Shown piece by piece: positions 10,924-53,941 of a stretch of 64,000 nucleotides of DNA. The stretch spans positions 62,001 to 126,000 of the forward strand of contig NZ_LN999831.1 in assembly GCF_900048045.1 (NCBI RefSeq), read 5' to 3'. This stretch comes from Candidatus Mikella endobia (lineage in GTDB: Bacteria; Pseudomonadota; Gammaproteobacteria; Enterobacterales; Enterobacteriaceae). Under the pieces are notes generated by a model, which saw only the letters and a program-made list of their open reading frames with translations, ran no database searches and had not been told where the DNA came from. Positions within the stretch are counted from its first letter, which is position 1. Each line of letters starts with the position of its first letter. The translations under genes were made by a program, and so were the position numbers.

Positions 10924-10962
10924 TTTATTTTATGTAACTTGTTAGATATTTAGTTAAGAATA

Positions 10963-10985
10963 TGAGAATACATTTCTCAATTTTT
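10963..10985 (+). terminator. Probable weak terminator after hfq
   Basis: Forty bases past the hfq stop a 6-bp stem (TGAGAA, loop TACAT, TTCTCA) is followed by ATTTTT. The stem is short and AT-rich, so efficiency would be low, but position and U tract fit termination of mutL-miaA-hfq. Confidence 0.45.
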
Positions 10986-12029
10986 ATCTATTCTATCTTT
11001 AAAAAAGAGAATTGTAGCTATTATATATATTTTTTAGTCTATTTATTTTTGTTGGTAACTTAATATTAAAAAATATTTACTTAAAATATAGTTTATAAAA
11101 TCGAGCTTATAGTATGGAATTATCAGATTTATAAAAAAATAACAATCATAAAAGCAAAATTAACTAGTATACTTGATATTGATAAGTTATTTCATAAAAT
11201 TTAATATAAAATATGCGTAATTATTTTAGGTATTAGTTACTTCTATACTTTACCAGAAATAGAACAGAGCGTAGTTCTCTGTTTATGTAAATTTTTTCCT
11301 ATACTAAACTGGAAACTTATAGATATTGTAATTGTTATTAATGTGGATCTGTACACTGACATTTGATTAGATGAGAATTTGATACGTGTTGAAATGAACG
11401 TCTCGTGTTTTTGATCTCCAAAATGATTAGAGAGCTTTAGCACTCTACGTGGTATGGTATATAGATAATTATTAAAGGTCGTACTGTGAGATATAAATTC
11501 TGTTAAAAGTAAATATTCAGCTCAATAATATTAGGATTACTCTTCTTGATGTTAATTTTTAGAATTTTATTCTTCAGAAAGAATTCAAGTTAGTTTTTTA
11601 CGATGCTATCGTAACGCAAGAAATAAAAAAATAATATTTTAAGCAAAAACGTATACTAATGAAGTATAACTAAATGCTAATTTCCAAGCATACCTTATTT
11701 AAGAAATATGTGCCTATAAAATTCGTACCATTTGAAAAGTATAAGGGAAAGTACAAAATTTTGCAAAAATATTGCTGGAATATAAAGAAGTACGAGAAAT
11801 TATACTAAAAATTTTTTAGATAAAAATTAAACTCTATAGCAAATATTAAGCTCTAATTATTTATGGTAAAGTAAATACAGAAAGTATAAAGCTATATGTT
11901 AAAATATGTAATATCCTGTATTCTATGGGTGCTTGTGCGCTCATGAAAATAGCTGCAAGAGTAAGAAGAATGTTATTCTTCTAAGTTTAGAAAGCAATTC
12001 TTTAAAATTAATGAATAAATTTGATATTG
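10986..12029. other. Decay zone where hflX-hflK-hflC-purA would lie
   Basis: E. coli has hflX, hflK, hflC, yjeT, purA, nsrR and rnr between hfq and rlmB. Here about 1 kb remains before the recognisable rnr remnant, with no usable frame and no fragment I could assign confidently. A stretch near 11.9-12.0 kb may be an upstream part of rnr, but the resemblance is too faint to call. The DNA looks like an advanced stage of erosion. Confidence 0.5.
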
Positions 12030-12700
12030 CTTGAGCTAATCAGTGCGCTACATCTGTCTATTTTCCTTCGCAAGTAATACCTTTCGCTATCTAATGGATT
12101 ATGTTCATTAAATACGCCAGTATACAGGTTATATGTATGTGTGATATGATCTGCTCAAGGAGATCTTTCTTCTTATAAATTTTATGAAGCTATGATGAAT
12201 TCCCATGCACGATTAACTTATCACCAAATATATTACTAAAATCAATGAAACAAGCAATTTATAATCCTGAAAATAGTGGTAATTTATGATTAGCGCTGCT
12301 GTTCATTTTATCTCTACTATTCATCGTTCTTCAAATATTATACTACACAGAGCTATCAAATATATTCTCTAAAAAATAACAACAACGTTTACTATACTAA
12401 AAAATATAGACTCAACAATGCTTAAGCTTAGACAGCAAGGTTCTATGACGAAGCTACCAGTAATATTATTAATTGGTTAAAATGCGACTTTATGCAAGAT
12501 CATATTAATGAAGTATTTAGTGGTAACGAATTTGATTGTACGCCTTAATGTCTAGTGTATATATTATCAAATGATTATTATTGATGGATCGGGTTTGGTA
12601 GGTAAATTCGTATGGATCTCGAGATGCTGTAAAAATTAGTGTGTGTAGGTAGTATATAGAACGATTAATTTCTAATAGAAGTAATCTTCTATAGAGCAAA
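12030..12700 (+). pseudogene. rnr: Ribonuclease R pseudogene
   Basis: Conceptual translation across several frames gives clear pieces of the RNase R catalytic and S1 regions in the right order. TSVYFPSQVIP lies near 12053-12085, LSNGLCSLN then SSYKFYEAMMNSHARLTY lie near 12090-12220, and MKQAIYNPEN near 12245-12275. LHRAIKYIL lies near 12342-12370, DEAT and then NWLKCDFM near 12448-12495. Frameshifts, in-frame stops and an internal deletion between the second and third pieces rule out a working enzyme. It sits directly upstream of rlmB, exactly where rnr lies in E. coli. RNase R degrades structured RNA and helps in trans-translation and rRNA quality control. Confidence 0.88.
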
Positions 12701-12927
12701 TATAATATATAACACACAGAAGAATAAGCATGATAGAATAATCAATTGGAAATTAATAAAAATTATTGAATGTTTAAAGCAACATTCAATTATATAATTT
12801 TATAATAAAATTTCGTTATAACAATAAAAAACCCAACATAGAAATGTTTTCTTTCCTATATGGAAACTTGGGAATAGATAATAAATCTATTAGAGAAAAT
12901 TAAATTCAAATATCTATAAAAATTTTT

Positions 12928-14069: not shown

Positions 14070-15173
14070 ATGTCAAATAAAAGTAAACAAAAAGTAATTG
14101 TAGGTTTATCCGGCGGAGTAGATTCTTCTGTTTCAGTTTGGTTATTACAACAACAAGGCTATCTGGTAGAAGGCCTATTTATGAAAAATTGGGAAGAAGA
14201 TGATAATGATAAATATTGTAATGTAGCAAATGATCTTATTGATACCCAGATTATCTGTGATAATTTAGGTATTATATTGCATACTGTAAATTTTGCTGCT
14301 GAATATTGGGATAAAGTTTTCTTGAAATTTATTTCCGAATATCAAAATTTCAGAACTCCTAATCCAGATATATTGTGTAATAAAGAAATTAAGTTTAAAA
14401 CATTTTTAGAATTTGCTACTGAAGATTTAGGAGCTGATTTCATTGCTACAGGCCATTATGTACGTCGATATGACGATCTCAATGGTAAAATAAAGCTACT
14501 TCGTGGTATAGATAAAAATAAAGACCAGAGTTATTTTTTATATACATTAAATTATACACAGCTTTCACGTTGTTTATTTCCTGTAGGAGAACTAGTAAAA
14601 CCAGAAGTACGGCGTCTCGCCTCTAAACTTCGTCTAGTAACAGCTACAAAAAAAGACTCTACTGGTATCTGTTTTATAGGAAAACGAAAATTTCGCCAGT
14701 TTTTAGAACGTTATTTACCACCAGTACCGCAGGGTGCTATTGTTTCTGTTGAAGGTCAACAAGTAGGTTATCATCAAGGTCTTATGTATTATACTCTAGG
14801 TCAGCGTAAAGGATTAGGCATTGGTGGAATAAATAAAGGCAATGAATCTCCATGGTATGTTGTGGATAAAGATATTAAAAATAATAAGCTTATTGTCGCT
14901 CAAGGACACCAGCATCCGAGACTAATGTCTACTAATTTTGTTACTAATCAGTTACATTGGGTAGATCAAAAACCGCTTACAGAAACACTTTATTGTACAG
15001 TTAAAACTCGTTATCGTCAACCGGATATCGATTGTATTATCAAACCTTTATCTAACTGTAGTTTACAAGTTATTTTAAAGCATCCAATAGCTGCTGTTAC
15101 TCCAGGTCAATCTGCTGTTTTTTATTTAGAAGAATGTTGTTTAGGTGGGGGTATAATTGAATCTTCTACTTAA
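14070..15173 (+). CDS. mnmA: tRNA-specific 2-thiouridylase
   Basis: MnmA activates and thiolates C2 of wobble U34 in the Glu, Gln and Lys tRNAs, using sulfur delivered by the Tus relay. The protein has 367 residues (E. coli 368). The PP-loop ATP-binding motif is SGGVDSS (14-20). The two catalytic cysteines lie in [12 protein letters not shown] (about 102) and [10 protein letters not shown] (about 199). The C-terminal beta-barrel ends in AVFYLEE, typical of the family. TusA, B, C and D are encoded at the right end of the window and MnmG at 19.5 kb, so the route to mnm5s2U looks largely intact. Confidence 0.96.
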
Positions 15174-15303: not shown

Positions 15304-17355
15304 ATGAATACTGATAACATTTTCAATGTAAATCAATTGCATGAAGGTCAACTAATAGTGCATATGGAACACGGAGTAGGTCGCTATGATGGGATGACTA
15401 TAATTGAAACTAGGGGTATTAAAGCAGAATATGTGATTCTAACATATGCTGATAATGATAAACTTTACGTTCCAGTATATTCATTACATCTTATTAGCAA
15501 CTATGATGGTTGTATTGATAATGTGCCATTGCATAAACTAGGTAGCGATGTTTGGAAACGAGTACGAAAAAAAGCAGTTGATAAAGTACGAGATGTAGCA
15601 TCAGAGCTTCTTGATATTTATGCTCAACGTACTATTAAAAATGGTTTTTCTTTTTCTTATAATAAAAAAAAATATCAATTATTCTGCAAACAATTTCCAT
15701 TTGAACTTACTAGTGATCAATGTAAAGTTATTAATGAAGTTTTGAGTGATATGTGTAAACCTATTGCCATGGATCGTTTAATTTGTGGTGATGTTGGCTT
15801 TGGTAAAACCGAGATAGCAATGCGCGCTGCATTTTTAGCCATTGAAAATCACAAACAAGTTGCTGTATTAGTACCTACTACGCTGCTAGCACAACAACAT
15901 TTTGACAATTTTATAGAAAGATTTGCAAATTTTCCAGTACATATTGAAATGATTTCTCGTTTTCGCAGCACCAAAAATAGAAATCAAGTATTAGATCATA
16001 CAGCTCAAGGTAAAGTAAATATTTTAATTGGTACCCATATACTACTACAAAATAAAGTAAAATGGCATAATTTAGGATTACTCATTCTTGATGAAGAACA
16101 TCGATTTGGAGTACTTCATAAAGAGCACATAAAATCAATTTATTCTAATATTGATATTTTAACTTTAACAGCTACTCCTATTCCTCGCACATTAAATATG
16201 GCTATGAGCGGCATACGCAATTTATCTATTATATCTAAACCTCCAGCAAAGAGATTAAGGATTAAAACTTTTTTATGTGAATATAATGCGCTATTAGTAC
16301 GTAAAGCTATTCTACGAGAAGTGCAGCGTGGAGGACAAGTTTATTATCTATATAATAATGTAAAAAATATTGAAAAAACTGCTAGAAGATTAGCAAATTT
16401 GGTTCCAGAAGCACGTATTAATATTGGTCATGGCAAACTTAAAGATCGAGATTTAGAAAAAGTGATGAATGATTTTTATCATCAGCGTTTTAATGTACTA
16501 GTATGTACTACTATTATAGAAACAGGTATTCATATAGCTAACGCTAATACAATTATTATAGAACAAGCGAATCAATTCGGATTAGCACAACTTCATCAAT
16601 TGCGTGGCCGTGTGGGTCGTTCGCATCATCAAGCATACGCTTATTTGTTAACCTCGTCACCTAAAGAACTACTAAGCAATGATATACATAAGCGTCTTGA
16701 AGCAATATCTTCACTAGAAGAATTAGGGGCTGGATTTACGTTAGCAAAGCATGATTTAGAAATTAGAGGTTCCGGAGAACTATTAGGATCAAATCAAAGT
16801 GGACAAATGAAAACTATAGGTTTCACTTTATATACTAAGCTTTTAAAAAATGCTATAGAAGCTATTAAGTATGGAAGTGAACTTTCTCTTGAAAAGATTA
16901 CTTCTATTACCGATATTGAGTTACATCTTCCAGCTATCTTACCAGAAGAGTATATTCCTGATGTTAATACTCGTTTATCTTTCTATAAACGTCTTGCTAG
17001 TGTTGAAAATTATTGTGAAATAGAAATTTTAAAAAAAGAACTTATTAGCCGTTTTGGTGTCATGCCTAATGAAGCACATTATTTACTAATGATAACAGTT
17101 ATTAGACAACGTGCTCAAAATTTAGGTATACAACGTATTGAGGGTAGTAATAAAGGAGGAGCTATAAATTTTAGTAATAATCATTATATTGATCATACCT
17201 ATATTATTAACCTTCTGAAACAAGAACCTAAAATTTATCGTTTCGATGGTCAAAATAAGTTAAAATTTATATGTGATTTGTCTAACTTTAGAACAAGATT
17301 ACAATATATAGCTGATCTATTAGAAAAATTTCAACAGCATACAATAAAGAATTAA
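15304..17355 (+). CDS. mfd: Transcription-repair coupling factor lacking its N-terminal third
   Basis: This is a 683-residue form of Mfd (E. coli 1148). It begins at the RNA-polymerase-interacting CarD-like domain (EGQLIVHMEHGVGRYDGM, 14-31). It then keeps the RecG-like translocase with Walker A GDVGFGKT (162-169), the DEEH box, TATPIPRTL and QLRGRVGRS, and a C-terminal domain. The roughly 470 residues that form the UvrB-like and UvrA-binding domains are absent, and only 130 bases separate the ATG from mnmA, so no hidden exon-like piece remains. It could still bind and push stalled RNA polymerase but should not recruit UvrA. Shortened Mfd proteins also occur in Buchnera. Confidence 0.93.
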   Translation: MNTDNIFNVNQLHEGQLIVHMEHGVGRYDGMTIIETRGIKAEYVILTYADNDKLYVPVYSLHLISNYDGCIDNVPLHKLGSDVWKRVRKKAVDKVRDVASELLDIYAQRTIKNGFSFSYNKKKYQLFCKQFPFELTSDQCKVINEVLSDMCKPIAMDRLICGDVGFGKTEIAMRAAFLAIENHKQVAVLVPTTLLAQQHFDNFIERFANFPVHIEMISRFRSTKNRNQVLDHTAQGKVNILIGTHILLQNKVKWHNLGLLILDEEHRFGVLHKEHIKSIYSNIDILTLTATPIPRTLNMAMSGIRNLSIISKPPAKRLRIKTFLCEYNALLVRKAILREVQRGGQVYYLYNNVKNIEKTARRLANLVPEARINIGHGKLKDRDLEKVMNDFYHQRFNVLVCTTIIETGIHIANANTIIIEQANQFGLAQLHQLRGRVGRSHHQAYAYLLTSSPKELLSNDIHKRLEAISSLEELGAGFTLAKHDLEIRGSGELLGSNQSGQMKTIGFTLYTKLLKNAIEAIKYGSELSLEKITSITDIELHLPAILPEEYIPDVNTRLSFYKRLASVENYCEIEILKKELISRFGVMPNEAHYLLMITVIRQRAQNLGIQRIEGSNKGGAINFSNNHYIDHTYIINLLKQEPKIYRFDGQNKLKFICDLSNFRTRLQYIADLLEKFQQHTIKN

Positions 17356-49912: not shown

Positions 49913-52900
49913 TTATTTTTTTTCAAATTCAACATTTATACCTAAAGATTGAATTTCTTTTAATAAAACATTAAAAGATTCTGGCATACTTGGTTCCATT
50001 ATTTGATTCCCATCAATAATATTTTTATATATTTTAGTTCTACCATTAACATCATCTGATTTAATAGTAAGCATTTCTTGTAAAGAATAAGCTGCACCAT
50101 AAGCTTCTAAAGCCCATACTTCCATTTCTCCAAAACGTTGTCCACCAAATTGAGCTTTACCTCCTAATGGTTGTTGAGTAACTAAACTATATGAACCGGT
50201 AGAACGAGCATGCATTTTGTCATCAACTAAATGATTAAGTTTTAACATATACATATATCCTACAGTAACTGGACGTTCAAATTTTTCTCCTGTTCTGCCA
50301 TCAAATAAAGTTATTTGACCAGAGCTAGGTAACCCTCCAAGATTTAATAAATCTTTAATTTCTTGCTCTTTTGCACCATCAAAAACAGGTGTAGCAATTG
50401 GCATTCCTTTTTTTAAATTTTTTGCTAAAAGTAATATTTCTTCATTAGAAAATGAAGAAAAATTTATTTTTTGACGTAAATTATTACCTATATTATAAGC
50501 TTTTTGAAGAAATTCACGCAATTTATTAATATTTTCATGCTGATTTAACATATCAGTAATTTTATTACCAATACCTTTTGCTGCCATACCTAAATGTGTT
50601 TCTAAAATTTGCCCAATATTCATACGGGAAGGAACACCTAAAGGATTTAAAACTATATCTACAGGTACTCCATTTTCATCATAAGGCATATCTTCAATAG
50701 GATTAATTTTAGAAATGACACCTTTATTACCATGACGTCCTGCCATTTTATCACCAGGTTGAATTTGACGTTTTACTGCTAAAGATATTTTAATAACTTT
50801 TAATATACCTGGTGCTAAATTATCATTTATAATAATTTTATTTTTTTTAGTTTCTAATTTTTTTTGAAATTCAGAATTCAATTCTTGATATTGTTCAATT
50901 AATTTATCTAATTGATTTTTAATAGTTTTATCAGAAATATCTAATTCTAACCAATTTTTGGGTGTTAAATTATCTATTTTTGATTTTTCTATTCCATTTT
51001 CAAGAAGAAGATTACGAATACGTGCAAATAATCCTATTTCAAAAATTTGTAATTCTTCAGTAAGGTCTTTTTTAGCTTGTTGAAGTTGTATTTCTTCTAT
51101 TTCTAATGCACGTTTGTCTTTTTTTACTCCATCTCTAGTAAAAATTTGAACATCAATGACAATACCAGAAATCCCATTGGGAACACGTAATGATGAATCT
51201 TTTACATCAGAAGCTTTTTCACCAAAAATAGCTCGTAATAATTTTTCTTCTGGTGTTAATTGACTTTCACCTTTTGGTGTTACTTTACCTACTAAAATAT
51301 CACCATCACTGACTTCAGCACCAATATATACAATACCTGATTCATCTAATTTTGAAAGTGCAGCTTCTCCTACATTAGGAATATCAGCAGTAATTTCTTC
51401 AGAACCTAATTTAGTATCGCGAGATATACAAGTCATTTCTTGTATATGAATAGTAGTAAAACGATCTTCTTGTACTACACGTTCAGATATTAACATAGAA
51501 TCTTCAAAATTATAACCATTCCAAGGCATGAAAGCAATACGCATATTTTGACCTAGAGCTAGTTCACCTAAATCTGTAGATGGACCATCAGCTATTACAT
51601 CGCCTTTATCAACTAATTCATCTAAACAAACACAAGGTTTCTGATTAATGCAAGTATTTTGATTAGAACGGATAAATTTCGTTAAATTATAAATATCAAT
51701 ACCAGCTTCTCCTGAAACTGTTTCATCAGAATTAACATTTATAACAATACGAGATGCATCCACATATTGCACTTTACCACCTCTTTTGGCTAAAATAATA
51801 ACACCTGAATCAACAGCAACAATTCGCTCCATACCAGTACCAACTAATGGTTTCTCATTAATTAGAGTAGGTATTGCTTGACGTTGCATATTGGCACCCA
51901 TTAATGCACGATTAGCATCATTATGCTCTAAAAATGGAATAAGTGAAGCACCTACTGAAACTATTTGTTGAGTAGAAACATCCATATAATTAACTTGTTG
52001 TCTATGAAATAAACTTGATTCTCCTTTATAACGACACGTTATAAATTCATCTATAAAATAACCTTCTTTATTAAAATTAGTATTTGCTTGTGCAATAACA
52101 AAATTACCTTCTTCAATTGCTGAAAGATAATGTATTTCATCAGTAACAACACTATTTTGTACAAGACGATAAGGAGTTTCTAAAAAACCATATTCATTAG
52201 TCTGTGCATATACAGATAATGAATTTATTAAACCAATATTTGGTCCTTCTGGAGTTTCAATAGAACATACACGACCATAATGAGTGGGATGTACATCACG
52301 GACTTCAAAACCGGCACGTTCACGAGTAAGTCCCCCAGGACCTAATGCAGAAATACGTCTTTTATGTGTAATTTCTGAAAGAGGATTATTTTGATCCATA
52401 AATTGTGATAGTTGACTAGAACTAAAAAATTCTTTTACTGCTGCTGAAATTGGTTTAATATTAATAATGTCTTGTGGCATGAGAGTATCCATCTCTGCTA
52501 AAGAAAGACGTTCTTTTACTGTACGTTCGACACGTATTAATCCTACACGAAATTGATTCTCTGCCATTTCACCTACAGCACGAATTCTACGATTACCTAA
52601 ATGATCAATATCATCAATTTCACTTTTACCATTACGTATATCAATAAGTTTTTTAATAACATCAATAATATCTTTAGGATCTAAAATATTAGAACCTTCA
52701 CTTTCATTACGTAACAATGATGAATTAAATTTCATCCTACCTACCGCTGATAAATCATAACGTTCTTCTGAAAAAAATATATTATGAAATAAATTTTCAG
52801 CTGCTTCATGAGTAGGAGGTTCTCCAGGACGCATCATACGATATATTTCTAAAAGTGCGCTTAATCTATCGTTAGTTGGATCAATACGTAATGTTTCAGA

Positions 52901-53941
52901 AATATAAGCACCGTTATCTAAGTCATTTGTAAACAGTGTTTCAATAAATGTATGTCCTTTATTTATTAATTTATTAATTATATCAATTGTTAATTCTTGA
53001 TTAGCAGAAATGATAATATCATTCGTTTTTTCATCAAAATAATCTTTTGCTACTATTTTTCCTACTATATATTCTATAGGAACATTAATTTGTTTAATAT
53101 TATCTTTTTTTAAATGATCAATATGACGATTAGTGATTCGACGACCTTTTTCAACATAAATAATATTATTTTCTTTTATATCAAATAAAGCAGTTTCTCC
53201 ACGTAAACACTCAGGAATCAATTTCATTTGTAAATTTTTATCATTAAATTCATAAATTATTTTATTAAAAAATATATCTAAAATTTGATTTTTATCATAA
53301 TTTAATGCTCGTAAAAGAATAGTTACTGGTAATTTACGACGTCTATCAATACGAAAAAATAAATTATCTTTTAAGTCAAATTCAAAATCTAACCATGAAC
53401 CATGATAAGGAATAATACGAGCGTTATATAATATTTTTCCAGAAGAATGATTCTTACCTTTATCACTATCAAAAAATACTCCTGGACTCCGGTGTAATTG
53501 AGAAACAATAACACGTTCAGTACCATTAATAATAAAAGTACCATTATCTGTCATAAGAGGTATTTCACCCATATATACTTCTTGCTCTTTTATATTCTTT
53601 ATTGTAACTTCTGTTATTTCACGTTCATAAATAACAAGACGAAGTTTGACACGTAAAGGTGCAGAAAAAGTTATCCCTCTTATTTGACATTCTTTAATAT
53701 CAAACAGAGGATCTCCTAAACGATAACTAATATATTGTAGTTCAGAATTACCATTATAACTTTGTATAGGAAATACAGAACGAAATGCTGCTTCTAGACC
53801 ATATAAACCTTCTGAATCTTGCTCGATAAATTTCTGAAATGAATCTAGCTGAATAGAAAGAAGATAAGGAATCTCTAAAATTTGCGGACGTTTTCCAAAA
53901 TCTTTACGAATACGTTTTTTTTCAGTATAAGAGTAAACCAT
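49913..53941 (-). CDS. rpoB: RNA polymerase beta subunit
   Basis: The protein has 1342 residues, equal to E. coli. It begins [19 protein letters not shown]. The rifampicin-pocket region reads [30 protein letters not shown] in segments, without an obvious resistance change; the C-terminal [20 protein letters not shown] binds beta'. The promoter-distal gene rpoC follows. In the 106 bases upstream a small hairpin (AATAACA/TGTTATT) lies just before the ribosome-binding site GGAGG. E. coli has an attenuator and an RNase III site in this gap; the gap here is much shorter. Confidence 0.97.

Follow-up and report, generated by a model that had tools for sequence, protein, structure and literature searches.

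A naturally truncated Mfd in Candidatus Mikella endobia, a probable derepressed translocase uncoupled from excision repair

Introduction

The Mfd protein of Escherichia coli (1148 amino acids; PDB: 2EYQ, 6X26) contains the D1a-D2-D1b module and domain D3, followed by the RNA polymerase-interacting domain (RID, or D4), a RecG-like motor (D5-D6) with its TRG motif, and D7, and it has UvrA as a partner. Residues R165, R181 and F185 of D2 are reported to bind UvrA, and residues E1045, D1048 and R1049 of D7 to hold D2 in a way that keeps the motor idle (PMC3025350). According to the same source, removal of D1a, D1b and D2 by engineering deregulates the ATPase and translocase activities, and the resulting protein displaces stalled complexes more quickly than the wild type does (PMC3025350; Manelyte, 2010). 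Mfd is also described as associating with the polymerase in the absence of damage (PMC5910403), and a case has been made that it accelerates resistance evolution (PMC6320318). The comparisons below, which bear on what Mfd does beyond repair, suggest that evolution has split its two halves several times.

The gene described here encodes a protein of 683 amino acids in which the RID, motor, TRG motif and D7 follow one another as in E. coli Mfd, but which lacks D1a-D2-D1b and D3, for which no UvrA partner was found, and in which the marker residues E800, D876 and D1048 are changed. Like the engineered E. coli protein, it is without the UvrB homology module and keeps the RID and motor; unlike that protein it is natural and stably inherited, is also without D3, and has an altered D7 face. 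Truncated Mfds in other small genomes of the family share the cut and the lack of an intact uvrA, and differ in their independent origins and in that seven of them keep D3. RecG has a homologous motor but no RID. Vesicomyid clam symbionts that lack uvrB and uvrC are reported to keep Mfd at low dN/dS (PMC5310779), and so resemble the present case in retaining the protein after loss of excision repair, but theirs is full-length (1141–1146 amino acids) and uvrA is present. The smallest Sodalis-related genome is given as 0.35 Mb, with Mikella and Trabutinella placed in one cluster (PMC11032189). We found no description of a truncated Mfd in symbionts in the open-licence PMC literature, outside which most subscription journals lie. 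Short Buchnera Mfd entries exist in protein databases, and we take the Buchnera protein, presumably of 812 amino acids, to be among the truncated Mfds.

Results

An mfd gene reduced to domains D4–D7

The window, the whole stretch of 64,000 bases that was analysed, covers bases 62001–126000 of a single-contig genome of 352,837 bases. Within it lies an open reading frame (Table 1) whose product aligns over residues 6–681 with residues 471–1147 of E. coli Mfd (phmmer), at 64% identity. Since the alignment pairs residue 6 with residue 471, the first residue corresponds to E. coli residue 466 and about 465 residues are absent, in agreement with a sequence-only reading of this DNA in which the frame began at the RID and about 470 N-terminal residues were missing. 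Domains D1a, D2, D1b and D3 are absent and D4–D7 are whole, with Pfam matches in the order CarD_TRCF_RID, DEAD, Helicase_C and TRCF. The TIGR00580 model scores 893.7 bits (curated cut-off 800), its match starting at model position 301 of 907. Judged by TIGR00580, the domain order and the motifs including R953, the protein is a member of the Mfd gene family by descent; the RID sets it apart from RecG, and Pfam reported no RecG-specific domain. An AlphaFold model built with a 72-row alignment has a pLDDT of 85, and in a Foldseek search with it the top match is E. coli Mfd; a single-sequence prediction (pLDDT 34) was set aside and the alignment-based model used.

Table 1. Features of the truncated mfd gene and of its presumed docking partner (window coordinates)
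Feature	Position	Strand	Basis
mfd reduced to D4–D7	15304..17355	+	683 aa plus stop; ORF, profile, alignment
RID (D4), residues 12–67	15337..15504	+	Pfam CarD_TRCF_RID, 63.8 bits
First motor lobe (D5), residues 136–298; motifs I, II, III unchanged	15709..16197	+	DEAD match
Second motor lobe (D6), residues 336–440; motif VI unchanged, motif V altered	16309..16623	+	Helicase_C match
D7, residues 540–631	16921..17196	+	TRCF domain match
Codon 334, Lys where full-length Mfds have E800	16303..16305	+	counted from phmmer alignment
Codon 410, His for D876, motif V	16531..16533	+	counted from phmmer alignment
Codon 582, Ser for D1048 (D7 residue holding D2)	17047..17049	+	counted from phmmer alignment
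rpoB, presumed docking partner; I117-K118-E119 unchanged	49913..53941	-	

The ATG lies 3 codons after the previous in-frame stop, and an upstream ORF (14070–15173), presumably mnmA, ends 130 bases ahead of it. No N-terminal Mfd remnant was found in the 2.5 kb upstream of position 15304 by tblastn with the N-terminal half of Mfd as query. A whole-genome search with the Mfd model returned the 683-residue gene and two weak helicase-like genes and no N-terminal piece, and the UvrB model, which in other genomes does detect the UvrB-like region of a full-length Mfd, found no such piece anywhere in this one. The earlier suggestion that the UvrB-like and UvrA-binding domains are missing is thus borne out, D1a-D2-D1b falling outside the alignment, and the separate N-terminal gene that would have contradicted it was found neither in the genome nor upstream. 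AT-rich symbiont genomes are, as general knowledge, prone to homopolymer errors, and a frameshift or assembly error might in principle conceal an intact N-terminal half; with no N-terminal homology in the 2.5 kb upstream or elsewhere in the genome, and with the same cut in a sister genome, this explanation is scarcely credible.

Excision-repair partners

The earlier reading had proposed a search for uvrA, uvrB and uvrC as a check. Over the whole genome, the best uvrA match has an E-value of 6.5e-9 and corresponds to no intact gene, the best uvrB match (3.1e-7) falls in the helicase part of the model and likewise represents no intact gene, and uvrC gives no match. Of what transcription-repair coupling requires, the D1a-D2-D1b module is missing here and no gene for UvrA, UvrB or UvrC was found. 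A role in repair by some other route, for instance UvrD-led or base excision, might draw on greA and rho, which are intact and score above their model cut-offs, and on the nearly whole uvrD of the sister genome; however, the UvrA-binding module is absent, no uvrA, uvrB or uvrC was found, and the uvrD of this genome is in pieces, so that we regard such a role as very improbable. The uvrD remnant (genome positions 252384–254311, minus strand, outside the window) is split into no fewer than four fragments lying in different frames, two of which contain stops; that of the sister genome has one stop.

Recurrent truncation among small genomes

We surveyed 125 genomes of at most 2.4 Mb, picked by eye from 392 genomes of the family, for Mfd. 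The other small genomes are probably those of insect symbionts, to judge by their size, base composition and family. Full-length Mfd was found in 29, a truncated protein in 43 (42 plus the clearly broken G031) and no Mfd core in 53. None of the 43 truncated-Mfd genomes has an intact uvrA, the strongest match being 6.5e-57; G063 and G077 keep uvrA remnants, and the others have matches of 3.7e-12 or weaker, or none. Likewise, searches of 40 of these genomes (all except G268, G380 and G409) turned up no intact uvrB or uvrC. Among the full-length Mfds of small genomes, 9 occur with uvrA and 20 without an intact uvrA. Of the 69 genomes that have an RpoB row, 41 carry a truncated Mfd and no uvrA, 19 a full-length Mfd and no uvrA, and 9 a full-length Mfd with uvrA (Fisher 1.2e-4, counted over tips with kinship ignored), and because of this split uvrA loss looks necessary, but not sufficient, for truncation. 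The reverse of the present genome is seen in G090 and G173, which have uvrA, uvrB and uvrC and no Mfd core.

The cuts cluster at two domain borders. In reference residues and taking the first start codon, 7 of the 42 truncated proteins start at 337–362 and keep D3, one starts at 425, and 32 start at 445–477, before the RID; in the remaining two, G395 and G228, the first start codon comes late (561 and 616), their frames being open from 466 and 469. We take the borders of D3 and D4 to lie near residues 350 and 470. In the class that keeps D3, the dN/dS of this domain is 0.57, 0.71 and 1.06 in three pairs. Clear N-terminal remnants were found in G077 and G063 among 22 genomes examined, with weak ones in G016 and G115 and none, or chance level, in the other 18. 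The mfd locus of G063, a 2.4 Mb genome, appears to be a truncation caught in progress (L061; G063:C1:1087549-1092441): a remnant of residues 43–408, 36% identical, is left in another frame, and residues 422–1145 are 71% identical.

Truncations were counted on RpoB trees of 70 genomes with 1000 bootstrap trees. If truncation is irreversible, 8–13 events are needed over the 1000 trees (11 in 686 of them), and with reversals at least 6 changes are required; these counts may be pushed up or down by long AT-rich branches, and the placement of Mikella's own genus is unsure. The truncations of G016, G063, G068, G077 and G115 are isolated in every one of the 1000 trees. These gene trees suggest that the same cut arose independently several times among the relatives.

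Motor motifs and selection

In the 683-residue protein, motifs I (Walker A), II, III and VI are unchanged, as are T710, H842 and the TRG residue R953. In motif V (reference TTIIETGIDIP) a histidine replaces D876 and an alanine the proline two residues further, so the earlier statement that every helicase motif is intact holds for the former set and fails for motif V. The sister genome (G001; 298,471 bases), the only same-genus genome compared, carries an Mfd truncated at the same place with asparagine for D876. This aspartate is kept in all 20 full-length Mfds from uvrA-less genomes and in 33 of the 42 truncated proteins, the other 9 having a different residue. The altered motif V is the main doubt about how strong the motor of the 683-residue protein may be. 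Across the 42 truncated proteins, K634 and D729-E730-E731 are invariant, and the key residues of motifs I, III (one T to S apart) and VI, together with T710, H842 and R953, are kept in 40–42.

A dN/dS estimate for the remaining domains had also been proposed. Against the sister genome it is 0.160 for the core at dS 0.63 (Nei-Gojobori), with 0.165 for the RID, 0.143 for the motor and 0.195 for D7, and RpoB of the same pair gives 0.194; the remaining domains of the 683-residue protein are under purifying selection. Over 13 truncated pairs, some of which share genomes, core dN/dS ranges from 0.131 to 0.383. D7 reaches 0.80, and in the six other truncated pairs with RpoB values Mfd has 1.6–3.4 times the RpoB ratio, for which reason we consider the constraint on truncated Mfd to be real but weaker than that on RpoB. 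In the core, 263 sites are shared by at least 95% of a set of 39 full-length Mfds, and the 683-residue protein is altered at 19 of them. The set comprises 30 proteins from larger genomes, 21 of the family and covered by the uvrA search and 9 of other families, and 9 from small genomes counted as uvrA-bearing; among the latter, the uvrA match of G075 is partial and G104 gave none for uvrC.

These data bear on the idea that the gene is in decay, its least-constrained N-terminal half having been lost first and the rest dying slowly with little or no function. The absence of an Mfd core from 53 of the 125 small genomes, the broken gene of G031, the missing early start codons of G395 and G228, the altered motif V, the dN/dS above that of RpoB in six other pairs and the D7 values of up to 0.80 are what one would expect of such a gene. 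The open frame of 683 codons and its dN/dS, close to that of RpoB in the same pair, argue against decay, as do the cuts at domain borders and the persistence of the key catalytic residues in 42 truncated proteins, which arose independently at least 8 times; we think decay unlikely.

The polymerase docking side

Both partners of the docking interaction retain what it would require: the RID is present and RpoB residues I117-K118-E119, which we take to be the Mfd-binding motif, are unchanged. The same three residues are unchanged in 42 of 42 RpoBs from truncated-Mfd genomes (G031 included, G337 missing). At RID position 499 the 683-residue protein has isoleucine and the reference leucine; isoleucine is also found in 24 of the 42 truncated and 10 of the 20 uvrA-less full-length Mfds. 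Site conservation among the truncated proteins is 0.795 in the RID vs 0.908 in D5.

Decay of the D2–D7 contact

The residues of D7 that hold D2 have eroded in the truncated proteins. E1045, D1048 and R1049 are kept in 16, 3 and 5 of the 42 truncated proteins and in 19, 9 and 13 of the 20 uvrA-less full-length proteins. When the 263 conserved sites are ranked by loss in the truncated proteins, D1048 is second, R1049 ties for third and E1045 is 25th, and 0.16% of random draws of three charged conserved sites decay as badly. The top site is E800 in D6, a glutamate in 58 of 59 full-length proteins (aspartate in one); of the 43 truncated proteins 41 have lost it, G116 and G268 being the exceptions, and 29 have lysine. 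The E800 switch accompanies the cut in five lineages with a full-length relative, though AT pressure would readily turn GAA into AAA. Because E800 is lost even where D3 is kept, its partner probably lies in D1a-D2-D1b. The 683-residue protein itself has lysine at 800 and serine at 1048, and still has E1045 and R1049. The co-decaying residues E800, R804, E1045, D1048 and R1049 offer a testable map of the contact by which E. coli Mfd inhibits itself.

In the uvrA-less full-length Mfds, R165 and F185 are each kept in 6 of 20 and R181 in 19 of 20; the UvrA contact seems to relax before the D2–D7 clamp. The ratio of D2 to core divergence is 1.93 in this group, 1.39 in small uvrA-bearing genomes and 1.30 in larger genomes (p 0.003 and 2e-5, respectively, with kinship ignored), and for the whole N-terminal half relative to the core there is little difference (p 0.04 and 0.52).

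Relation to RecG

RecG-type matches, defined as Mfd-model matches to the motor alone with E below 1e-90 rather than by a RecG model, and leaving out the split cases G249 and G075, were unexpectedly absent from all 43 truncated-Mfd genomes, the present one included. They occur in 14 of the 53 Mfd-less genomes and in 7 of the 20 uvrA-less genomes with full-length Mfd (Fisher 1.8e-4 and 1.4e-4, over tips with kinship ignored). Either one RecG-like motor suffices, with ungated Mfd covering for RecG, or both patterns follow general gene loss.

This distribution, together with the report that derepressed Mfd translocates without polymerase (PMC3025350), would fit a protein that has become a RecG substitute, its ungated motor working on DNA forks or R-loops with polymerase docking secondary. 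The RID is nevertheless kept and constrained in the comparison with the sister genome, and the RpoB docking residues are preserved throughout; moreover, the RecG-type calls do not come from a RecG model and the association ignores kinship. We judge a RecG substitute quite unlikely.

Discussion

The reading that we favour, and consider probable, is that the 683-residue protein is a working, derepressed, polymerase-displacing translocase uncoupled from repair and kept by selection on transcription. When RNA polymerase stalls, the RID would dock on its beta subunit, and the D5-D6 motor would move along the upstream DNA by ATP hydrolysis and push the polymerase forward or off. Because D1a-D2-D1b is gone, UvrA would not be recruited (the genome is without UvrA in any case), and because the D2–D7 clamp cannot form, the motor should be permanently derepressed. 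Deleting Mfd domains 1–3 reportedly (Murphy 2009 and Smith 2007, as cited) relieves autoinhibition. Once UvrABC had been lost, selection on the N-terminal half would have relaxed, allowing deletions up to the RID border, and selection would have retained the half that acts in transcription.

We prefer this explanation because it accounts for the domain map, the lack of uvrABC, the purifying selection, the conserved motor and docking residues, the recurrent cuts at domain borders, the decay of the D2–D7 contact and the structural model that matches E. coli Mfd, and because the engineered E. coli protein provides a precedent. Counted against it are the D876 change, the Mfd dN/dS above that of RpoB in six pairs, the broken gene of G031, the 53 of 125 genomes without an Mfd core, the lower conservation of the RID than of D5, and the retention of E1045 and R1049 here. 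We infer from these comparisons that the symbiont expresses the protein, and that there it is derepressed and displaces polymerase. The sequence-only proposal that excision repair cannot be recruited and that the transcription role is under selection is therefore supported, with polymerase displacement itself an expected property, and with reservations over motif V, the dN/dS of the other pairs and a role in DNA translocation only.

A wider proposal can be put forward tentatively. Insect symbionts without excision repair may repeatedly have turned a gated Mfd into an always-on translocase acting on polymerase and DNA, with loss of E800, D1048 and R1049 as the signature; such a protein might cover for lost RecG and, here, UvrD, and genomes would keep RecG or an ungated Mfd, never both. 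If the shortened proteins work, polymerase displacement would by itself be reason enough to retain Mfd in some of the smallest genomes, and such proteins would provide natural ungated Mfds for biochemistry.

Elsewhere in the window, about 2 kb (10950–12900) between hfq-like and rlmB-like ORFs contain no ORF longer than 92 amino acids, and the stop-to-stop pieces there resemble an eroded RNase R gene.
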